From contig CALLNY010000022.1 in assembly GCA_938005475.1 (NCBI GenBank), forward strand, positions 1 through 64,000: DNA of 64,000 nt. Direction: 5' to 3'. Of the stretch, positions 2,931 to 12,197 are shown piece by piece. The notes below the pieces were generated by a model that did no database searches, was not told the DNA's origin, and saw only the letters and a program-made list of their open reading frames with translations. Made by a program: the position numbers and the translations under genes. Position 1 is the first letter of the stretch. Each line of letters begins with the position of its first letter. Source of the stretch: an uncultured Bacteroidia bacterium. Its GTDB lineage: Bacteria; Bacteroidota; Bacteroidia; J057; CALLMJ01.

Positions 2931-4421
<1,491 letters not shown>

Positions 4422-4432
4422 CCTCTTTTTCC

Positions 4433-6481
4433 TTGAGACGTTTCTTTAGAAAATATTTTTTCCAATTATTACCTTCATTCACCAGTTGGTTAATACTATT
4501 CTCTATTGAGTTATACCAAATCGTTTATGATTTAAATAGAGGTGAGATTTTATTTCCTATTCCGAACCCCGTCAAGGATTTCTTTCACTTTCTCTTCTTA
4601 GTTTTTATCTTTCAAGCTGGAAAAAATATTGTCAAAAAAGAAGCAAAACCAACCTCACTTGAAATTATTTGGTTAGTGGTGGGTATTGGTGGAACAGGCA
4701 TAATCATAAACGCTTTAAGCAATTGGATAAGAAATGTTTACATGGCTAATTATTCTTCTATCTTCTGGTACAACTTAGACAAATACATAGGCATCCTTAC
4801 TAATGCCTACTTTTTTATTACCCTCACTTTTGTTTATAGACAGCTTATACTTTTTCGATCTACTAAAACTAAACAAAATGCTTGGTTTTTATTAGATGTT
4901 TTGATTTATCTTGGTTTTTTAGGATTATTTGAAAAATATTTTACACTTTATGTAATTTTTATTATCGCTTATTGGGTATTTGCTTTTTGCATCATTATTT
5001 ATCTTTCAATCCATACGGAATGGGTCGCCTATTTAAACTTCAAAGAAAAACTTATGGGCATCTTTTTTATGTCCATAGTGTTAATCATTCAATTAAGTTA
5101 TCTTTTCTTGATAAATGCAAAATATACTACTGATAATAAATTCAATGTACTAGAAAACTTAGATTTAGAAGTTATTTATTTGTTTTGTTTATTATATACA
5201 TTTTTTTGTATATTAGTTTTGGCTTTTAATTTACCTACAAGTTCTTTATACGAATTACGGCAAGTTGAGCGTAATGCATTAAATGAAATTAACAAAGTTA
5301 TTTTAAAGTCAAAAGCGGATAGCTCCGAAGTTTATAATATTTTAATGAATTATGGAATGAGAAGTGCCAAAGGAGATTTCGGTTGGATAATATTCTCTGA
5401 TAATGAATCTTCTCGAATTATTCAAGCTATTAATTGTGATGACCATGTAGCTATGGATATCCATCCTATTATCAATAAATATTGGTCTTATCAGGTAGAT
5501 AAAAAAAATTTTTTTGTTGGAGATACTGCACGACTTTCACTTCTAAAGAATAAATCCCATTTTATAGGCTCTTTTTTTGCGACGAAAATTTGTACACAAG
5601 ATAATGAATACGGGGATTTAGTGCTAGGTTGGAAGCATAAAAATGTTTTTGAGTTAGAACTTTATTCTTTCCTTTCTATTATCACAGAACAAGCCGCAAT
5701 AGCCTTAGAAAATAAAGAATTATTTAAAAAGTCTATAACATTAGAACGTTATCAAGAACAACTAAAAATAGCCAAGGATTTTCAAGATAGGGTTCTACCC
5801 AAAATTCAATCTACTGAATATTTTGATTTACATGCAGTTAATCAAGAGGCTGACGAGATTGGTGGTGATTATTTAGAGACCTACCAAGATAATGAGTTTT
5901 TTCATATTTTTATAGCCGATGTAGCAGGAAAAGGTACAACAGCCGCTTTTTATATGGCGGAACTGAAAGGTATGCTTCAAATTCTTTTTCCTTTACAACT
6001 TGCTCCAATTGCTTTTATCCAAAAACTTAATACCGCTGTTTCTAACTGCCTCTCTGCTAATTTATTTATTACAGCCAATTATTTACGAATCCATAAATCC
6101 AGTTTGAAATGTCAATTCGTGAGGGCTGGTCATACACCTCTCCTGCATTATTCCCAAAAAGATAAATTAGTGTATCAATACCAGCCTAAAGGAATTGGAT
6201 TAGGTATTTTAAGAAAAGAACTATCCGATAAAAATTTTGATGTCCAAGAATTACAACTTCAAAAAAATGACTTATTATTGTTATTCACTGATGGTATCAT
6301 TGAAGCACGAAATCCTAATAACGAAGAACTTGGCATGGATATATTAAAAGATTGGTTAGCTTCTTTTAACAACTTATCATCATTAGATATCAATTATTGC
6401 ATTCTAGAGCAAATGATGGCGTTTACAAACGAAAAAAAATTTGATGATGATTATACACTCTTCACTTTGAAAGTAAAATAA
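4433..6481 (+). CDS. membrane-anchored GAF-SpoIIE (PP2C) serine phosphatase, RsbU-like
   Basis: The 682-residue protein starts with about 250 residues containing roughly six or seven membrane segments. A short linker helix and a GAF-like sensor region (about 285-435) follow, then a coiled stretch and a SpoIIE/PP2C phosphatase domain (about 455-682). The metal-binding aspartates are visible in EIGGDYLE, IADVAGKGTTAA, LLLFTDGIIEARN and DDDYTLFTLK. Such enzymes dephosphorylate STAS-domain anti-sigma antagonists, and a STAS gene follows directly, so that is the likely substrate. The start is a TTG at 4433; no in-frame ATG occurs before about residue 104, which would delete membrane helices. It probably reads through from guaB. 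The signal it senses is unknown. Confidence 0.85.
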   Translation: MRRFFRKYFFQLLPSFTSWLILFSIELYQIVYDLNRGEILFPIPNPVKDFFHFLFLVFIFQAGKNIVKKEAKPTSLEIIWLVVGIGGTGIIINALSNWIRNVYMANYSSIFWYNLDKYIGILTNAYFFITLTFVYRQLILFRSTKTKQNAWFLLDVLIYLGFLGLFEKYFTLYVIFIIAYWVFAFCIIIYLSIHTEWVAYLNFKEKLMGIFFMSIVLIIQLSYLFLINAKYTTDNKFNVLENLDLEVIYLFCLLYTFFCILVLAFNLPTSSLYELRQVERNALNEINKVILKSKADSSEVYNILMNYGMRSAKGDFGWIIFSDNESSRIIQAINCDDHVAMDIHPIINKYWSYQVDKKNFFVGDTARLSLLKNKSHFIGSFFATKICTQDNEYGDLVLGWKHKNVFELELYSFLSIITEQAAIALENKELFKKSITLERYQEQLKIAKDFQDRVLPKIQSTEYFDLHAVNQEADEIGGDYLETYQDNEFFHIFIADVAGKGTTAAFYMAELKGMLQILFPLQLAPIAFIQKLNTAVSNCLSANLFITANYLRIHKSSLKCQFVRAGHTPLLHYSQKDKLVYQYQPKGIGLGILRKELSDKNFDVQELQLQKNDLLLLFTDGIIEARNPNNEELGMDILKDWLASFNNLSSLDINYCILEQMMAFTNEKKFDDDYTLFTLKVK

Positions 6482-6485
6482 TTTT

Positions 6486-6493
6486 TATATTTG
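6486..6493 (+). promoter_or_regulatory. -7 promoter box for the STAS/RsbW pair
   Basis: TATATTTG is an exact TAnnTTTG match lying 5 nt after the phosphatase stop and 17 nt before the STAS start. It suggests that the antagonist/kinase pair also has its own promoter, separate from guaB. Confidence 0.55.
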
Positions 6494-6510
6494 CGTGTAC
6501 TTACGTACTT

Positions 6511-6849
6511 ATGAAAGTAGAATTATTAGATTCCGAAAATTTTACCACGGTTTTCTTGATAGGAGAGATTGATGCATATTCTTCCATAAATATTCAACAA
6601 ACGCTACAAAATCTATTAGATAACGGCAAAAAAAATATTCACATAAATTGTGAACAACTTGAATATATTTCCAGTGCGGGGCTTGGTGCTTTAATGTCCT
6701 TTGTAGAAGAAATTGAAAATTCTAATGGAACAATGGTATTTTCTGGCTTAAAACCTAAAGTTTTTAACGTTTTTCAACTGCTCGGACTAGACCAAATCAT
6801 GAAAATTGTAGATAATCAAACTGAAGCTATAACTTTTTTTCAAAACTAA
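6511..6849 (+). CDS. STAS-domain anti-sigma factor antagonist (RsbV/SpoIIAA-like)
   Basis: This 112-residue protein is a single STAS domain. The phosphorylatable serine lies in YISSAGLGALMSF (Ser54/55), at the conserved helix start of SpoIIAA/RsbV proteins. In partner switching the unphosphorylated form binds the RsbW-type kinase and frees that kinase's other target. Its neighbours are a SpoIIE phosphatase upstream and an RsbW-like kinase 13 bp downstream, the classic RsbU-V-W order. No sigma factor gene is adjacent, so the final target is unknown. Confidence 0.88.
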   Translation: MKVELLDSENFTTVFLIGEIDAYSSINIQQTLQNLLDNGKKNIHINCEQLEYISSAGLGALMSFVEEIENSNGTMVFSGLKPKVFNVFQLLGLDQIMKIVDNQTEAITFFQN

Positions 6850-6862
6850 CGTAAAAATAAGT

Positions 6863-7300
6863 ATGAATAATATGGCTAAACTGACTGTCAATTGCGATTT
6901 AAAAAATTTAGGGGTGATTCGTGAATTTGTTCAAGAACATCTAAATGATATTCCTTTAACCTGTGATATTACCTCTAATCAAATTGTTTTGGCGGTTGAT
7001 GAAGCTTGTGCTAATTCTATAATCCATGGAAATCATTGTGACAAAAGAAAAGAACTCTCCATAGAAATTTATCACGATGATTACAACGATTTACATATCA
7101 ATCTTTATGACTCCTCACCACCATTTGATATTTTTAGCTATCAAATGAAAGATATCAAAGAAAAAGTAAAAAACGCAGAAAAAGGGGGTATGGGCATTTG
7201 TTTAATTCAAAGAATTATGGATGAAATTACAATCGAAAAATTCCCTGATTTCTGCGTCTATAAATTTGTCAAGCATTTATCAAACTGCAATAATAAATAA
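6863..7300 (+). CDS. RsbW-like anti-sigma serine kinase (HATPase_c_2 ATPase)
   Basis: This 145-residue protein is one GHKL ATPase domain. The N box is VDEACANSIIHGN (about residues 49-61; Glu and Asn contact Mg-ATP) and the G box is EKGGMGICLIQRIMDEI (about 108-124). Proteins of this size and type phosphorylate a STAS antagonist and bind a sigma factor or another client. It follows the STAS gene by 13 bp and clearly shares its transcript. It converges with the PAS-SpoIIE gene on the minus strand. Starts at 6863 or at the Met three codons later are both possible. Confidence 0.85.
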   Translation: MNNMAKLTVNCDLKNLGVIREFVQEHLNDIPLTCDITSNQIVLAVDEACANSIIHGNHCDKRKELSIEIYHDDYNDLHINLYDSSPPFDIFSYQMKDIKEKVKNAEKGGMGICLIQRIMDEITIEKFPDFCVYKFVKHLSNCNNK

Positions 7301-7321
7301 TTTAATTCATAATAATTTTAC

Positions 7322-7348
7322 AAAAAAAAGCTGCGAAATTTTTCGCAA
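7322..7348 (-). terminator. intrinsic terminator of the first PAS-SpoIIE gene
   Basis: Read on the minus strand, a TGCGAA/TTCGCA stem with a short AT loop is followed by an eight-base T tract. It lies 54 nt beyond the stop at 7402. The plus-strand side has no T tract, so it serves the minus-strand gene. An identical hairpin follows the paralogous gene. Confidence 0.7.
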
Positions 7349-7444
7349 CCTCATTACATATGAAACGATTAAACTTGCTTTGTTAATTGGGTTATATATG
7401 ATTATAATTCCAATCCAATCATTAAAAAGTCATCTGTTTGTTCT
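7330..7444. repeat. 115-bp direct repeat, copy A (3' end of PAS-SpoIIE gene plus terminator)
   Basis: This segment is identical base for base to 10023-10137. It covers the terminator hairpin, the 53-nt untranslated stretch before it and the last 43 nt of the coding region. Similarity continues into the coding region with scattered differences. It marks the boundary of a tandem gene duplication or a recent gene-conversion tract. Confidence 0.9.
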
Positions 7445-9951
7445 TGACCGTTGAACCATGTATTTAAAGAAAATTTTATTTCTTTGATAGTTTGAGCTAA
7501 ACCAGCATCCGCATTACCAGCAATAATGGATTTTAGACGAGTTAGACCAAATTTTTTGTTTTCAGGACCACCGAACTGGTCAATTATTCCATCAGACATA
7601 AGAAATAATTTTTTGATTTCTTTCTTATTAAATTCCATGAAATTAAAGTTAGCTTTTTCAGACTTTAATGGATGATAACCAAGGTAGTTATCAAATTTTA
7701 AAATCTCGATAAGGTCATTATTTTTTTGAATGATTATAGGTTGAGCAATCGTAGAAAACAAGTAAATTTTATCAGAATTAAACATTGCCAAGCTTATTTC
7801 AAAAGCATCTTTAAAACCATATTCCTTTTGAATATTTAAAATTCCTTCTTGAATTGCTCCTATTTTTTTATTTATTTCAACTTTTGCATACTGATTGCTA
7901 ATATTATTTAAATATTGTTGAAAATATATAGATAAAAGAGCGCCAGGAACGCCATGACCTGTACAGTCTGCTACTACAACGCATAAAATTTCATCGTATT
8001 GCTTAATCCAATAAAAATCCCCACCAATCTCTTCCTTGGGTTGAAAATAAACAAATGAATCTTTAAAGTTTGATTTCAATATTTCCTTATTAGGGAGTAA
8101 AGCGTTTAGTATTGATTTTGCATACCTTAAACTATCTTCTAAATCCTTATTCCGTTCTTGGATGAGTTTTTCTTTTTCTTTTTTCTCCGTAATATCCATT
8201 TCAATAGCAATATATTTTTCTACTTCTCCCACTTCGTTTAAAATAGGTGTAATATTCAAACTAATCCAATAGGGTTTACCATCTTTTCTATAATTCAAAA
8301 TTTCTTCACGAAAAGAAGTTTTTAATTGAAGTTTTTCGCGTATTCTTTGAACTGTTTGAGGGTCTGTATCTTTACCTTGCAAAATTCTACTGGGAATTTT
8401 TCCTTTAACTTCTTCAAAAGTATAACCCGAAATTCTCGTAAAACCAGGATTTACCCACTCAATCTCTCGGTTTGCATTGGTAATGATGACCGCATTGTCG
8501 GTATTTGCGGCAACCATGGACAGAGAGCGTAGTTGATTCTGGGCATTGCGAATATTTTCTAAGCTTTTCTCTAATGCTTCTGTTTTGATTTTTAAATCTT
8601 CATTGATGGCATTTAATTCTTCTTGTGCCATTCTTAATTCTTCTTCGGAAGCTAAAAGTTCCTGATTTTTTTCTTCTAGTTGGATTTGTTGTTCAATTTG
8701 CACTGTAATTTCAAAACGCACCCCAATATATTTTATTATTACTCCATGATTATCCAAAACAGGAGTAATTGTAGCATTAACCCAATAAAAGCTACCATTT
8801 TTCTTTTTATTGCAAATGATACCACGCCAAACTTTGCCTGAACTGATTGTTGCCCACATCTCTACGAAAATAGAGTCATTTTGTTTTCCAGATTTTAAAA
8901 TACGATGATTTTTTCCAAGAAGCTCTTCAACTGAGTACCCCGAAACACTAGAAAAAGTTTGATTAGCAAAAATAATATTGCCTCTTATATCAGTTTCTGA
9001 GACCAGAGCTGCGTTATTTAGCGCGTTGATTTGTCCTTTCAATTCTATTTGATTAAGAACTAATTTTTCTTGAATAGTTTCCATCTCCTCTATATTCTGC
9101 CGAAGCTCTTCTTCTATAGCTAAAAGTTCTTCATTTTTTTCACGAAGTTGTTGTTCTTGCTGTTTACGTTCTGTTATGTCAATTGCTAATTTAATAACGG
9201 ATTTAGGTTCTTGGGTAGTGGTATCTTTCACTACTATGTAAACCGCTTGTAGCCATATTATTTGCCCATTTTTATGTTTTCTTTGAAATTCACTCTCTGC
9301 CTTGCCCTCTTTTAGAAGATTATTCCAAAATGCTTGGTATGTTTCATCTGTCATTAAATCTCCTACTAAACTGCGATGATTTTTACCAATTAATTCTTCG
9401 GTCGTATAACCTAACAAACTAGCAAGCTTTTCATTAACTGTCAAAATCCTGCGGTTCAAATCAAATTCAATGAACCCTATACGCGTATTGATAGCTTCAT
9501 TGTATGCTTTTAGCTGTGAATATTGTTGTTCTAATTTCTGTTTGTTTATAATATCTTCGGTTTTATCTACACCCAAAATGACAAAATTTGAAATCTGCCC
9601 TTTTGAATCTAAAACAGGATTTACATTTAACTCCATGTAATAAGGTGTCCCTTCTTTATCATAATTCATAATTTTCTCTCGAAAAGGTTCATTTTTGGTC
9701 AGCTTCTCGAGAATATTTCCTAAAGAATGAATATCTTCATTTTTATTTTGTAAAAAATCCCAAAATTTAGTTCCTTTAATTTCATGAAAACTATATCCTG
9801 TAAAATCCGTAAATGCTTGATTAACCCATGAAATCAAACCATTAGCATCGGTTATGATAATTACATTGTCCGATTTCTCTATAATGTTTGAAATCAAATT
9901 TACTTCATCAATTTGATTATTATTGTTAGATGAAAAAAAGTTTTTGAACAT
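7402..9951 (-). CDS. four-PAS SpoIIE (PP2C) serine phosphatase
   Basis: The 849-residue soluble protein carries four PAS/PAC sensor domains (about residues 20-135, 150-265, 310-420 and 475-590). Glu/Gln-rich coiled coils separate PAS2, PAS3 and PAS4 and link the last PAS to a C-terminal SpoIIE phosphatase domain (about 640-849). Catalytic-site segments are EEIGGDFYWI, VVADCTGHGVPGALLS, LMSDGIIDQFGG and QTDDFLMIGLEL. The ORF-track start at 9978 is a TTG inside the promoter box, so I use the ATG at 9951. It is a paralogue of the next gene with one extra PAS domain (the third). The likely substrate is a phosphorylated STAS protein, and the one encoded at 6511 is a candidate. Ligands of the PAS domains cannot be read from sequence. 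Confidence 0.88.
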   Translation of the reverse strand: MFKNFFSSNNNNQIDEVNLISNIIEKSDNVIIITDANGLISWVNQAFTDFTGYSFHEIKGTKFWDFLQNKNEDIHSLGNILEKLTKNEPFREKIMNYDKEGTPYYMELNVNPVLDSKGQISNFVILGVDKTEDIINKQKLEQQYSQLKAYNEAINTRIGFIEFDLNRRILTVNEKLASLLGYTTEELIGKNHRSLVGDLMTDETYQAFWNNLLKEGKAESEFQRKHKNGQIIWLQAVYIVVKDTTTQEPKSVIKLAIDITERKQQEQQLREKNEELLAIEEELRQNIEEMETIQEKLVLNQIELKGQINALNNAALVSETDIRGNIIFANQTFSSVSGYSVEELLGKNHRILKSGKQNDSIFVEMWATISSGKVWRGIICNKKKNGSFYWVNATITPVLDNHGVIIKYIGVRFEITVQIEQQIQLEEKNQELLASEEELRMAQEELNAINEDLKIKTEALEKSLENIRNAQNQLRSLSMVAANTDNAVIITNANREIEWVNPGFTRISGYTFEEVKGKIPSRILQGKDTDPQTVQRIREKLQLKTSFREEILNYRKDGKPYWISLNITPILNEVGEVEKYIAIEMDITEKKEKEKLIQERNKDLEDSLRYAKSILNALLPNKEILKSNFKDSFVYFQPKEEIGGDFYWIKQYDEILCVVVADCTGHGVPGALLSIYFQQYLNNISNQYAKVEINKKIGAIQEGILNIQKEYGFKDAFEISLAMFNSDKIYLFSTIAQPIIIQKNNDLIEILKFDNYLGYHPLKSEKANFNFMEFNKKEIKKLFLMSDGIIDQFGGPENKKFGLTRLKSIIAGNADAGLAQTIKEIKFSLNTWFNGQEQTDDFLMIGLEL

Positions 9952-9975
9952 AAGATTTTTATAATTTTTATCTTG

Positions 9976-9983
9976 CAAATGTA
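9976..9983 (-). promoter_or_regulatory. -7 promoter box of the four-PAS phosphatase
   Basis: The minus strand reads TACATTTG, an exact TAnnTTTG match ending 24 nt before the ATG at 9951. It overlaps the TTG used by the ORF track, which argues against that start. Confidence 0.55.
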
Positions 9984-10015
9984 ACTAATAACTAAAATAT
10001 ATCAAACAGAAAATG

Positions 10016-10040
10016 AAAAAAGGCTGCGAAATTTTTCGCA
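10016..10040 (-). terminator. intrinsic terminator of the second PAS-SpoIIE gene
   Basis: The hairpin is the same TGCGAA/TTCGCA stem as at 7332-7347, followed on the minus strand by six T residues. It lies 54 nt beyond the stop at 10095 and also separates this gene from the promoter of its downstream paralogue. Confidence 0.7.
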
Positions 10041-10137
10041 ACCTCATTACATATGAAACGATTAAACTTGCTTTGTTAATTGGGTTATATATGATTATAA
10101 TTCCAATCCAATCATTAAAAAGTCATCTGTTTGTTCT
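10023..10137. repeat. 115-bp direct repeat, copy B
   Basis: Identical to 7330-7444 at an offset of 2693 bp. More than half of the identity lies in non-coding sequence, where selection on protein cannot explain it. Confidence 0.9.
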
Positions 10138-12197
10138 AGACCGTTAAACCAAGTATTTAAAGAAAATTTTATTTCTTTAATAGTTTGAGCTAAACTAAAG
10201 TCTGTATTGCTAGCAACAATAGATTTTAGGCGAGTTAGACCAAATTTTTTGTTTTCAGGACCACCGAACTGGTCAATCATACCATCAGACATTAAGAACA
10301 ATCTTTTGACTTGTTGTTTATCCTTAACAAAAAATTCAAACGAATTAGTTTCATTGTGAAGGGGGTGATTACCTAAATAATTATCGGACTTTAAAATTTC
10401 AATTTGATTAAGGTTATTTTGAAGTAGGATAGGTTGTGCTGATGTGGTAAAAAGATGAACTTTTTGGTTATCAATCATTGCCATACTCATTTCAAAAGCA
10501 TCTTGAATACCTTGCTCATTTTGAAGTTTAAGAATACCTTCTTGAAGAGCCTTTAATTTTTCGTGTAATGAGACATGAGCATATTTAACTGCAAGCGTAT
10601 TTAAGTATTGTTGAAAATACATAGATAAAAGAGCGCCAGGAACGCCATGACCTGTACAATCGGCAGTAACTATATACAACGTGTCATCATGCTTCTGAAA
10701 CCAATAAAAATCTCCTCCAATTTCTTCTTTGGGTTGAAAATAAATAAAATAATCTTTGCAATAAGTTTTTATTACATCAGTATCGGGAAGTAAGGCTTTT
10801 TGAATAGTTTTGGCATATTTTAAGCTAGCTTCAAGGTCTTTATTGCGTTCTTGAATGAGTTTTTCTTTTTCTTTCTTTTCCGTAATATCCATTTCAATGG
10901 CTATAAATTTATCTACATCTCCTACTTCATTTAATATAGGTGTGATGCTTAGGCTTAACCAGTAAGGGCGACCATCTTTGGAATAATTTAAAATCTCTTC
11001 TTGAAAAGACGTTTTTAATAAAAGTTTTTCACGTATTCTTTGAACTGTTTGAGGGTCTGTATCTTTACCTTGCAAAATTCTACCGGGAATTTTTCCTTTA
11101 ACTTCTTCTAATGTATAACCCGAAATTCTCGTAAAAGCAGGGTTCACCCATTCAATTTCTCCATTTGCATTAGTAATAATGACCGCATTGTCGGTATTTG
11201 CGGCGACCATAGAAAGTGTACGAAGCTGTTCTTGAGCATTTTGAATAGTTTTTAAACTATTTTCTAATGCTTCTGCTTTGATTTTTAAATCTTCATTGAT
11301 GGCATTTAATTCTTCTTGTGCCATTCTTAATTCTTCTTCAGAAGCTAAAAGCTCTTGATTTTTTTCGTAAATTTCTTTTTCTTGCAGTTTTTTTTCGGTT
11401 ATCTCAATAGCTAGTTTGATTATCGATTTAGGTTGATTAGTTTGAATATCTTTCACTACCATATAAACTGCTTGAAGCCAAATAAGCTGTCCATCTTTAC
11501 GTATTCTTTGAAATTCACCTTCCGCTTTACCTTCTTTAAGCAAATTTTCCCAGTCTTGTTTATATTGCTCATCTGTATTCAAGTATCCCACCAGATCTCG
11601 GTGATTTTTGCCTATTAGCTCTTCTTTTGAATAACCTAGTATTTGTGCTAGTTTATCATTCACTAGAATAATTTTATTATCCAGACCAATCTCAAGAAAG
11701 CCTAATGTTAAATTGATAGCTTCATTGTAAGCTTTAAGTTGAGAAAGTTGGCTTTCAATTTGTATTTTGGCTTGCTCTAACTCTTTTTGTCTTTTTACTT
11801 CTTCGGTAACATCTAATTCAAAGGCAATAAAGTTAGTAAGGATGCCTAAATCGTTGAAGACAGGAGTTACATTTAGTTGAATCCAATAAGGGGTACCATC
11901 TTTATCGTAATTCAAAATATTTTCTCTAAATGATTCTTTTCGGGCAATGTGTTCTCGAATACGTTGCACAGTTTTAGGATCCGTATCTTTACCTTGTAGT
12001 ATATGACCAGGTTTTTTGCCTTTTACTTCTTCTAACGTATAGCCCGTTAAATCTGTAAATCCTTGGTTCACCCAAAGTATTAAACCATTTGCATCAGTAA
12101 TAATTACTGCATTATCGGTTTTTTCAGCGATAATGGAAAGTAATCTCGTTTCATCTACATCAATACCTGCGATAAGATTTTTTAAAGCTCTCAGCAT
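10095..12197 (-). CDS. three-PAS SpoIIE (PP2C) serine phosphatase
   Basis: The 700-residue protein has PAS/PAC domains at about 15-135, 145-265 and 325-440, a long coiled linker, and a SpoIIE phosphatase domain (about 490-700) with EEIGGDFYWF, TADCTGHGVPGALLS, LMSDGMIDQFGG and QTDDFLMIGLEL. PAS1 and PAS3 contain GKxPGxILQGKDTDP, which resembles the LOV-domain flavin segment but has no cysteine. There is no membrane segment or signal peptide. It is the tandem paralogue of the 7402-9951 gene. A weaker box (TGACTTTG, one mismatch, 12217-12224) lies upstream. It probably acts in the same partner-switching pathway as the RsbV/W pair, but that link is inferred from proximity. Confidence 0.87.
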   Translation of the reverse strand: MLRALKNLIAGIDVDETRLLSIIAEKTDNAVIITDANGLILWVNQGFTDLTGYTLEEVKGKKPGHILQGKDTDPKTVQRIREHIARKESFRENILNYDKDGTPYWIQLNVTPVFNDLGILTNFIAFELDVTEEVKRQKELEQAKIQIESQLSQLKAYNEAINLTLGFLEIGLDNKIILVNDKLAQILGYSKEELIGKNHRDLVGYLNTDEQYKQDWENLLKEGKAEGEFQRIRKDGQLIWLQAVYMVVKDIQTNQPKSIIKLAIEITEKKLQEKEIYEKNQELLASEEELRMAQEELNAINEDLKIKAEALENSLKTIQNAQEQLRTLSMVAANTDNAVIITNANGEIEWVNPAFTRISGYTLEEVKGKIPGRILQGKDTDPQTVQRIREKLLLKTSFQEEILNYSKDGRPYWLSLSITPILNEVGDVDKFIAIEMDITEKKEKEKLIQERNKDLEASLKYAKTIQKALLPDTDVIKTYCKDYFIYFQPKEEIGGDFYWFQKHDDTLYIVTADCTGHGVPGALLSMYFQQYLNTLAVKYAHVSLHEKLKALQEGILKLQNEQGIQDAFEMSMAMIDNQKVHLFTTSAQPILLQNNLNQIEILKSDNYLGNHPLHNETNSFEFFVKDKQQVKRLFLMSDGMIDQFGGPENKKFGLTRLKSIVASNTDFSLAQTIKEIKFSLNTWFNGLEQTDDFLMIGLEL

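Follow-up and report, generated by a model that had tools for sequence, protein, structure and literature searches.

A conserved partner-switching cassette beside a tandem pair of SiaA-type PAS phosphatases in an uncultured Bacteroidia bacterium

We analysed a stretch of 64,000 nucleotides (positions 1 to 64,000 of contig CALLNY010000022.1, assembly GCA_938005475.1; hereafter the window) from an uncultured Bacteroidia bacterium, in which positions 4433 to 12197 hold a membrane-anchored serine phosphatase, a STAS antagonist and a switch kinase on the forward strand, followed on the reverse strand by two phosphatases with multiple PAS domains. These five genes probably make up two neighbouring units: a partner-switching cassette whose client is not a SigB- or SigF-type sigma factor, with the primary sigma factor RpoD as the best candidate, and a SiaA-type PAS phosphatase pair that acts on a SiaC-type substrate. 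An earlier sequence-only reading had described the five open reading frames (ORFs) with their domains, and the ORF list and Pfam recovered all of them, including three and four PAS_9 domains in the opposite-strand SpoIIE phosphatases. The locus is laid out as follows (aa, amino acids).

2946..4421, forward strand: guaB, inosine monophosphate (IMP) dehydrogenase (Pfam IMPDH, 537 bits)
4433..6481, forward strand: RsbU-type membrane-GAF-PPM serine phosphatase, 682 aa (Pfam SpoIIE, 126 bits)
6511..6849, forward strand: STAS-only antagonist, 112 aa, predicted phosphoacceptor Ser55 in YISSAGLG (Pfam STAS, 68 bits; TIGR00377 above cut-off)
6863..7300, forward strand: RsbW/SpoIIAB-like HATPase_c_2 switch kinase, 145 aa (Pfam, 66 bits)
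7327..7352, reverse strand: terminator-like hairpin 3' of the four-PAS phosphatase gene, in a sequence block shared with the copy at 10020-10045
7402..9978, reverse strand: four-PAS SiaA-type phosphatase, 858 aa (PAS_9 four times plus SpoIIE, above the Pfam cut-off)
10020..10045, reverse strand: terminator-like hairpin 3' of the three-PAS phosphatase gene, duplicated along with the gene
10095..12197, reverse strand: three-PAS SiaA-type phosphatase, 700 aa (PAS_9 three times plus SpoIIE, above the Pfam cut-off)

Judged by its sequence, the phosphatase-STAS-kinase trio is a partner-switching module of the RsbU-RsbV-RsbW / SpoIIE-SpoIIAA-SpoIIAB kind, with the PPM aspartate set, the phosphoacceptor serine, the N-box and the binding-face arginine all present. 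The membrane GAF-SpoIIE architecture of the phosphatase was confirmed by Pfam, by orthologue alignment and by an AlphaFold2 model (mean predicted local distance difference test score, pLDDT, of 83.8), in which eight helices span the membrane, the residues from about 297 to 400 take up a GAF-like alpha/beta fold, and a helical linker of 45 residues leads to the PPM domain. The GAF domain of the window protein itself lies below the Pfam cut-off (E 0.024), but all 26 aligned orthologues contain GAF_2, with a best E of 2e-13. The metal-binding aspartates D479, D496, D620, D672 and D673 form a complete set that is invariant among 26 cassette phosphatase orthologues. Foldseek searches with the model matched SpoIIE, RssB and Rv1364c, and comparison of the catalytic domain with all Protein Data Bank (PDB) sequences returned SpoIIE, Rv1364c and RssB, not SiaA. 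The intact SSAGL serine reported for the antagonist is Ser55, which aligns with Ser58 of SpoIIAA and is the same in all 14 sequences aligned; the profile of this protein matches structures of TM1442, SpoIIAA and RsbV. Residues R20, E47 and N51 (N-box), D83 and the GGxG lid glycines of the kinase are likewise all invariant among aligned orthologues, and its profile matches the structures of RsbW (6m36, E 2e-14) and SpoIIAB.

The RsbU-V-W gene order, also described earlier, is kept across relatives. Sampling 22 genomes of the order, we found the kinase in 17, each time beside the STAS gene, with the phosphatase preceding the two in 15 of these 17 (in G017 a peptidase takes its place, and G006 is the other exception; G labels denote genomes, G000 being the genome of the window and G001 its congener). 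Among 395 sampled genomes of the class the kinase is present in 39, and the gene order rarely differs. Outside the order we read 19 cassette-type loci, 18 of which have the phosphatase alongside. Fused kinases, sought among the class matches, were not evident (open frames of 136-209 aa).

From these domains, catalytic residues, gene order and conservation, phosphorylation, switching and signalling can be predicted in outline. The kinase would phosphorylate Ser55 of the STAS protein with ATP and hold the client, whereas a membrane or GAF signal, relayed to the PPM domain by way of the helical linker, would lead the phosphatase to strip the phosphate from the STAS protein; once dephosphorylated and free, the latter would bind the kinase at its R20 face, and the client would be released. 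If the client is RpoD, the cassette would throttle housekeeping transcription, which is the role proposed for RsbW in Chlamydia.

The sequence-only reading had pointed out that no sigma factor gene lies next to the cassette and had proposed that the client is something other than SigB or SigF; both points stand and can be extended to the whole genome. No sigma gene was found near the cassette among the window genes read, and the sole Sigma70 region-3 protein of the genome is the primary RpoD, the three other Sigma70_r2 proteins resembling extracytoplasmic function (ECF) factors. Because RpoD is the only region-3 sigma, a SigB- or SigF-type client encoded elsewhere in the genome is excluded within the limits of assembly completeness (estimated 100%). 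Across the order, 20 of the 22 genomes gave a single protein in the region-3 search; G005 has an extra sub-threshold match and G009 has none. By analogy, the likeliest single client is the primary RpoD, followed closely by an ECF sigma or a non-sigma protein. The analogy is with Chlamydia, where binding of RsbW to the primary sigma66 has been reported (PMC4552016, PMC11619594). Like RsbU-RsbV-RsbW of Chlamydia trachomatis, the cassette combines a membrane phosphatase, a STAS antagonist and a switch kinase with the absence of a SigB-type sigma; unlike that system, which has a HAMP phosphatase and two antagonists, it has eight transmembrane helices plus GAF and consists of three genes behind guaB, with a putative client. 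It also shares the three protein folds, the phosphoacceptor serine, the N-box and R20 with the RsbU/RsbP-RsbV-RsbW-SigB and SpoIIE-SpoIIAA-SpoIIAB-SigF systems of Bacillus subtilis, but the genome encodes no sigma of the SigB/SigF type.

Neighbourhood comparison, which had been suggested as a route to a conserved client, disclosed no client gene kept beside the cassette in any lineage read: the cassette is followed by ppiD/surA/surA/moxR, by ruvB/queG or by unrelated genes, all of them housekeeping where scanned. This bears on the possibility, tentative but a serious one, that the client is a non-sigma protein, comparable to the SiaC-SiaD or HsbA-HsbD arrangements in which a phosphoprotein steers a diguanylate cyclase (PMC7647112, PMC8457831); such precedents and the lack of a SigB/F-type sigma speak for it, but no conserved non-sigma neighbour accompanies the cassette either. 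That the kinase holds an ECF sigma or RpoN instead of RpoD strikes us as rather unlikely. The genome does encode its three ECF-like proteins besides RpoD, but there is no cassette-linked ECF gene in the loci read (ORF lists, families scanned), and SpoIIAB/RsbW kinases are known to bind sigmas that carry region 3. Moreover, a 282-aa ECF-like factor occurs in the cassette-free genomes G018 and G019, and most cassette genomes are without a full-length copy; this factor was rejected as client, as its co-occurrence does not track the cassette. It is encoded at L236:7389-8234 (L labels denote the stretches read, and C labels contigs of G000, here C99), has a long N-terminal extension and is full-length in G000, G001, G017, G018 and G019.

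We lean towards the view that the cassette, found across many Bacteroidia families, regulates a kind of client undescribed for the phylum, in genomes without an alternative region-3 sigma. This client would be either a non-sigma protein or the primary sigma factor; in the latter case the cassette would throttle transcription globally in response to a membrane or GAF signal. A literature search limited to open-licence papers brought up no work on partner switching in Bacteroidota. As the cassette is conserved, compact and without an obvious sigma client, identifying the client is a well-posed problem, whose solution could either add to Chlamydia a second example of control over a primary sigma or reveal a non-sigma output that is new.

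The PAS phosphatases are of another catalytic type. When their catalytic domains were compared with all PDB sequences, the sole match at E below 0.1 was SiaA (6k4e; E 3.3e-13 for the three-PAS and 7.8e-11 for the four-PAS protein). The SiaA profile NF038263 scored 84 bits on the four-PAS and 106 bits on the three-PAS protein, over the C-terminal part only; with PAS domains in front and scores below the whole-protein cut-off of 700, the two are not full-length SiaA equivalogs. Elsewhere in the genome the same profile gave 175-207 bits for seven paralogues and 43 for an eighth (L125), and no match to the cassette phosphatase. A tree of catalytic domains placed the cassette phosphatases and small RsbU-type phosphatases of ∼417 aa on one side of a 100/99 split, and the PAS pair and 13 other paralogues from its own genome on the other; the expanded group is represented in this tree by own-genome copies only, and two paralogues are long-branched. 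A SiaC homologue is encoded in the genome as well (L234:13634-14002, C92; PF09345, 119 bits), with INSS at the phosphoacceptor position; SiaC, the substrate of SiaA, is a STAS-like phosphoprotein (PMC7647112). Because the catalytic domains are SiaA-type and a SiaC homologue is present, the PAS pair most likely dephosphorylates this SiaC-type phosphoprotein, encoded elsewhere in the genome, and not the cassette STAS protein. The resemblance to SiaA-SiaB-SiaC-SiaD of Pseudomonas aeruginosa lies in the catalytic domain and the SiaC homologue, but multi-PAS front ends replace that of SiaA and SiaC has no phosphatase in its operon. A PAS region N-terminal to the PPM domain is shared with the energy-stress phosphatase RsbP of B. 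subtilis, from which the pair differs in its catalytic domain (SiaA type, not RsbU type), its several PAS domains and its tandem arrangement.

Side observations on this branch were as follows. The SiaC homologue adjoins a glycosyltransferase-like gene and an ECF sigma gene (L234:11932-14002), with no SiaA or SiaB nearby. In G059, a relative from the class, a SiaB-SiaC gene pair (L201:11098-12604; its SiaC has FNTS) lies ∼3.5 kb from the cassette, so that both switch types occur in one neighbourhood. The gene at L115:1435-3711 (C64) encodes a membrane protein with a thioredoxin/peroxiredoxin-like domain (WCPAC), PAS and a SiaA-type phosphatase domain, possibly a redox-sensing phosphatase.

The PAS genes share 81% DNA identity over 1.36 kb, 3' flank and terminator included, and comparison of the two copies indicates that the pair arose through tandem duplication. 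It stands beside the cassette in the window only, and neither in the congener, where a PBP4-type peptidase gene lies 3' of the kinase in the place of the pair, nor in any of 34 other loci read. SpoIIE-family phosphatases are numerous in cassette-free genomes (13-27 each in G002 and G018-G020), and number only 1-4 in a family (f4) in which the cassette is present. In G002 and G020, each genome has 27 such phosphatases but a single STAS protein and a single strong small HATPase_c_2 kinase, an imbalance that the SiaC branch could explain; low Pfam scores suggest that the extra phosphatases of other genomes are SiaA-type as well. Most 'SpoIIE' phosphatases of the window's own genome are SiaA-like, and assigning them by default to STAS antagonists is a trap that separating the two types corrects.

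Alternatively, the PAS phosphatases might target the near-universal STAS protein encoded between fur and purA (C24), paired with a universal ybeY-linked kinase, which we regard as improbable. The Fur-STAS-purA arrangement is present in all cassette-free genomes and many others, the STAS protein has the serine in its INSTGLG motif, and the second small HATPase_c_2 kinase, ybeY-mnmG-linked, occurs across the order (own copy L058:8717-9130, C5); yet the PAS catalytic domains are SiaA-type, and the widespread RsbU-type 417-aa phosphatase would be a more natural partner. As for the five-gene hub of the sequence-only reading, in which the membrane-GAF and both PAS phosphatases converge on the one cassette antagonist, the physical adjacency of the genes in this genome and the precedent of B. 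subtilis, where RsbU and the PAS-bearing RsbP both act on RsbV (so that several phosphatases per antagonist would not be new; PMC12143880), speak for it. It is nevertheless very improbable, given that the adjacency is not conserved even within the genus, that the PAS pair belongs to a different catalytic clade with a SiaC candidate at hand, that SpoIIE-family phosphatases abound without the cassette, and that the PAS genes run convergently towards the cassette and are terminated separately, to judge by the hairpins.

We favour the SiaC branch as the probable reading, not as a proven one, and four points weigh against the two-unit interpretation: (i) RpoD is named as client by analogy and elimination; (ii) the PAS pair forms a divergent branch within the SiaA-type side; (iii) a SiaC branch requires the kinase SiaB, and reading about 17% of the genome did not turn it up; (iv) PAS orthologues may exist elsewhere in the congener, whose weakest SpoIIE matches fall outside those listed.

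Upstream, 12 bp separate the end of guaB from the phosphatase ORF, which is likewise on the forward strand, and the gaps within the cassette are 29 and 13 bp; from this spacing, guaB is probably the upstream gene of the cassette's transcription unit. A consensus promoter scan scored at chance level and was not used. The placement of guaB ahead of the cassette recurs in 12 further loci, spread over several families; in one of them a single gene intervenes. The two enzymes that compete for IMP thus both adjoin STAS antagonists, in Fur-STAS-purA (L059:7764-8129, C24) and in guaB-cassette (window 2946-7300), an adjacency that may reflect inherited gene order and not function.

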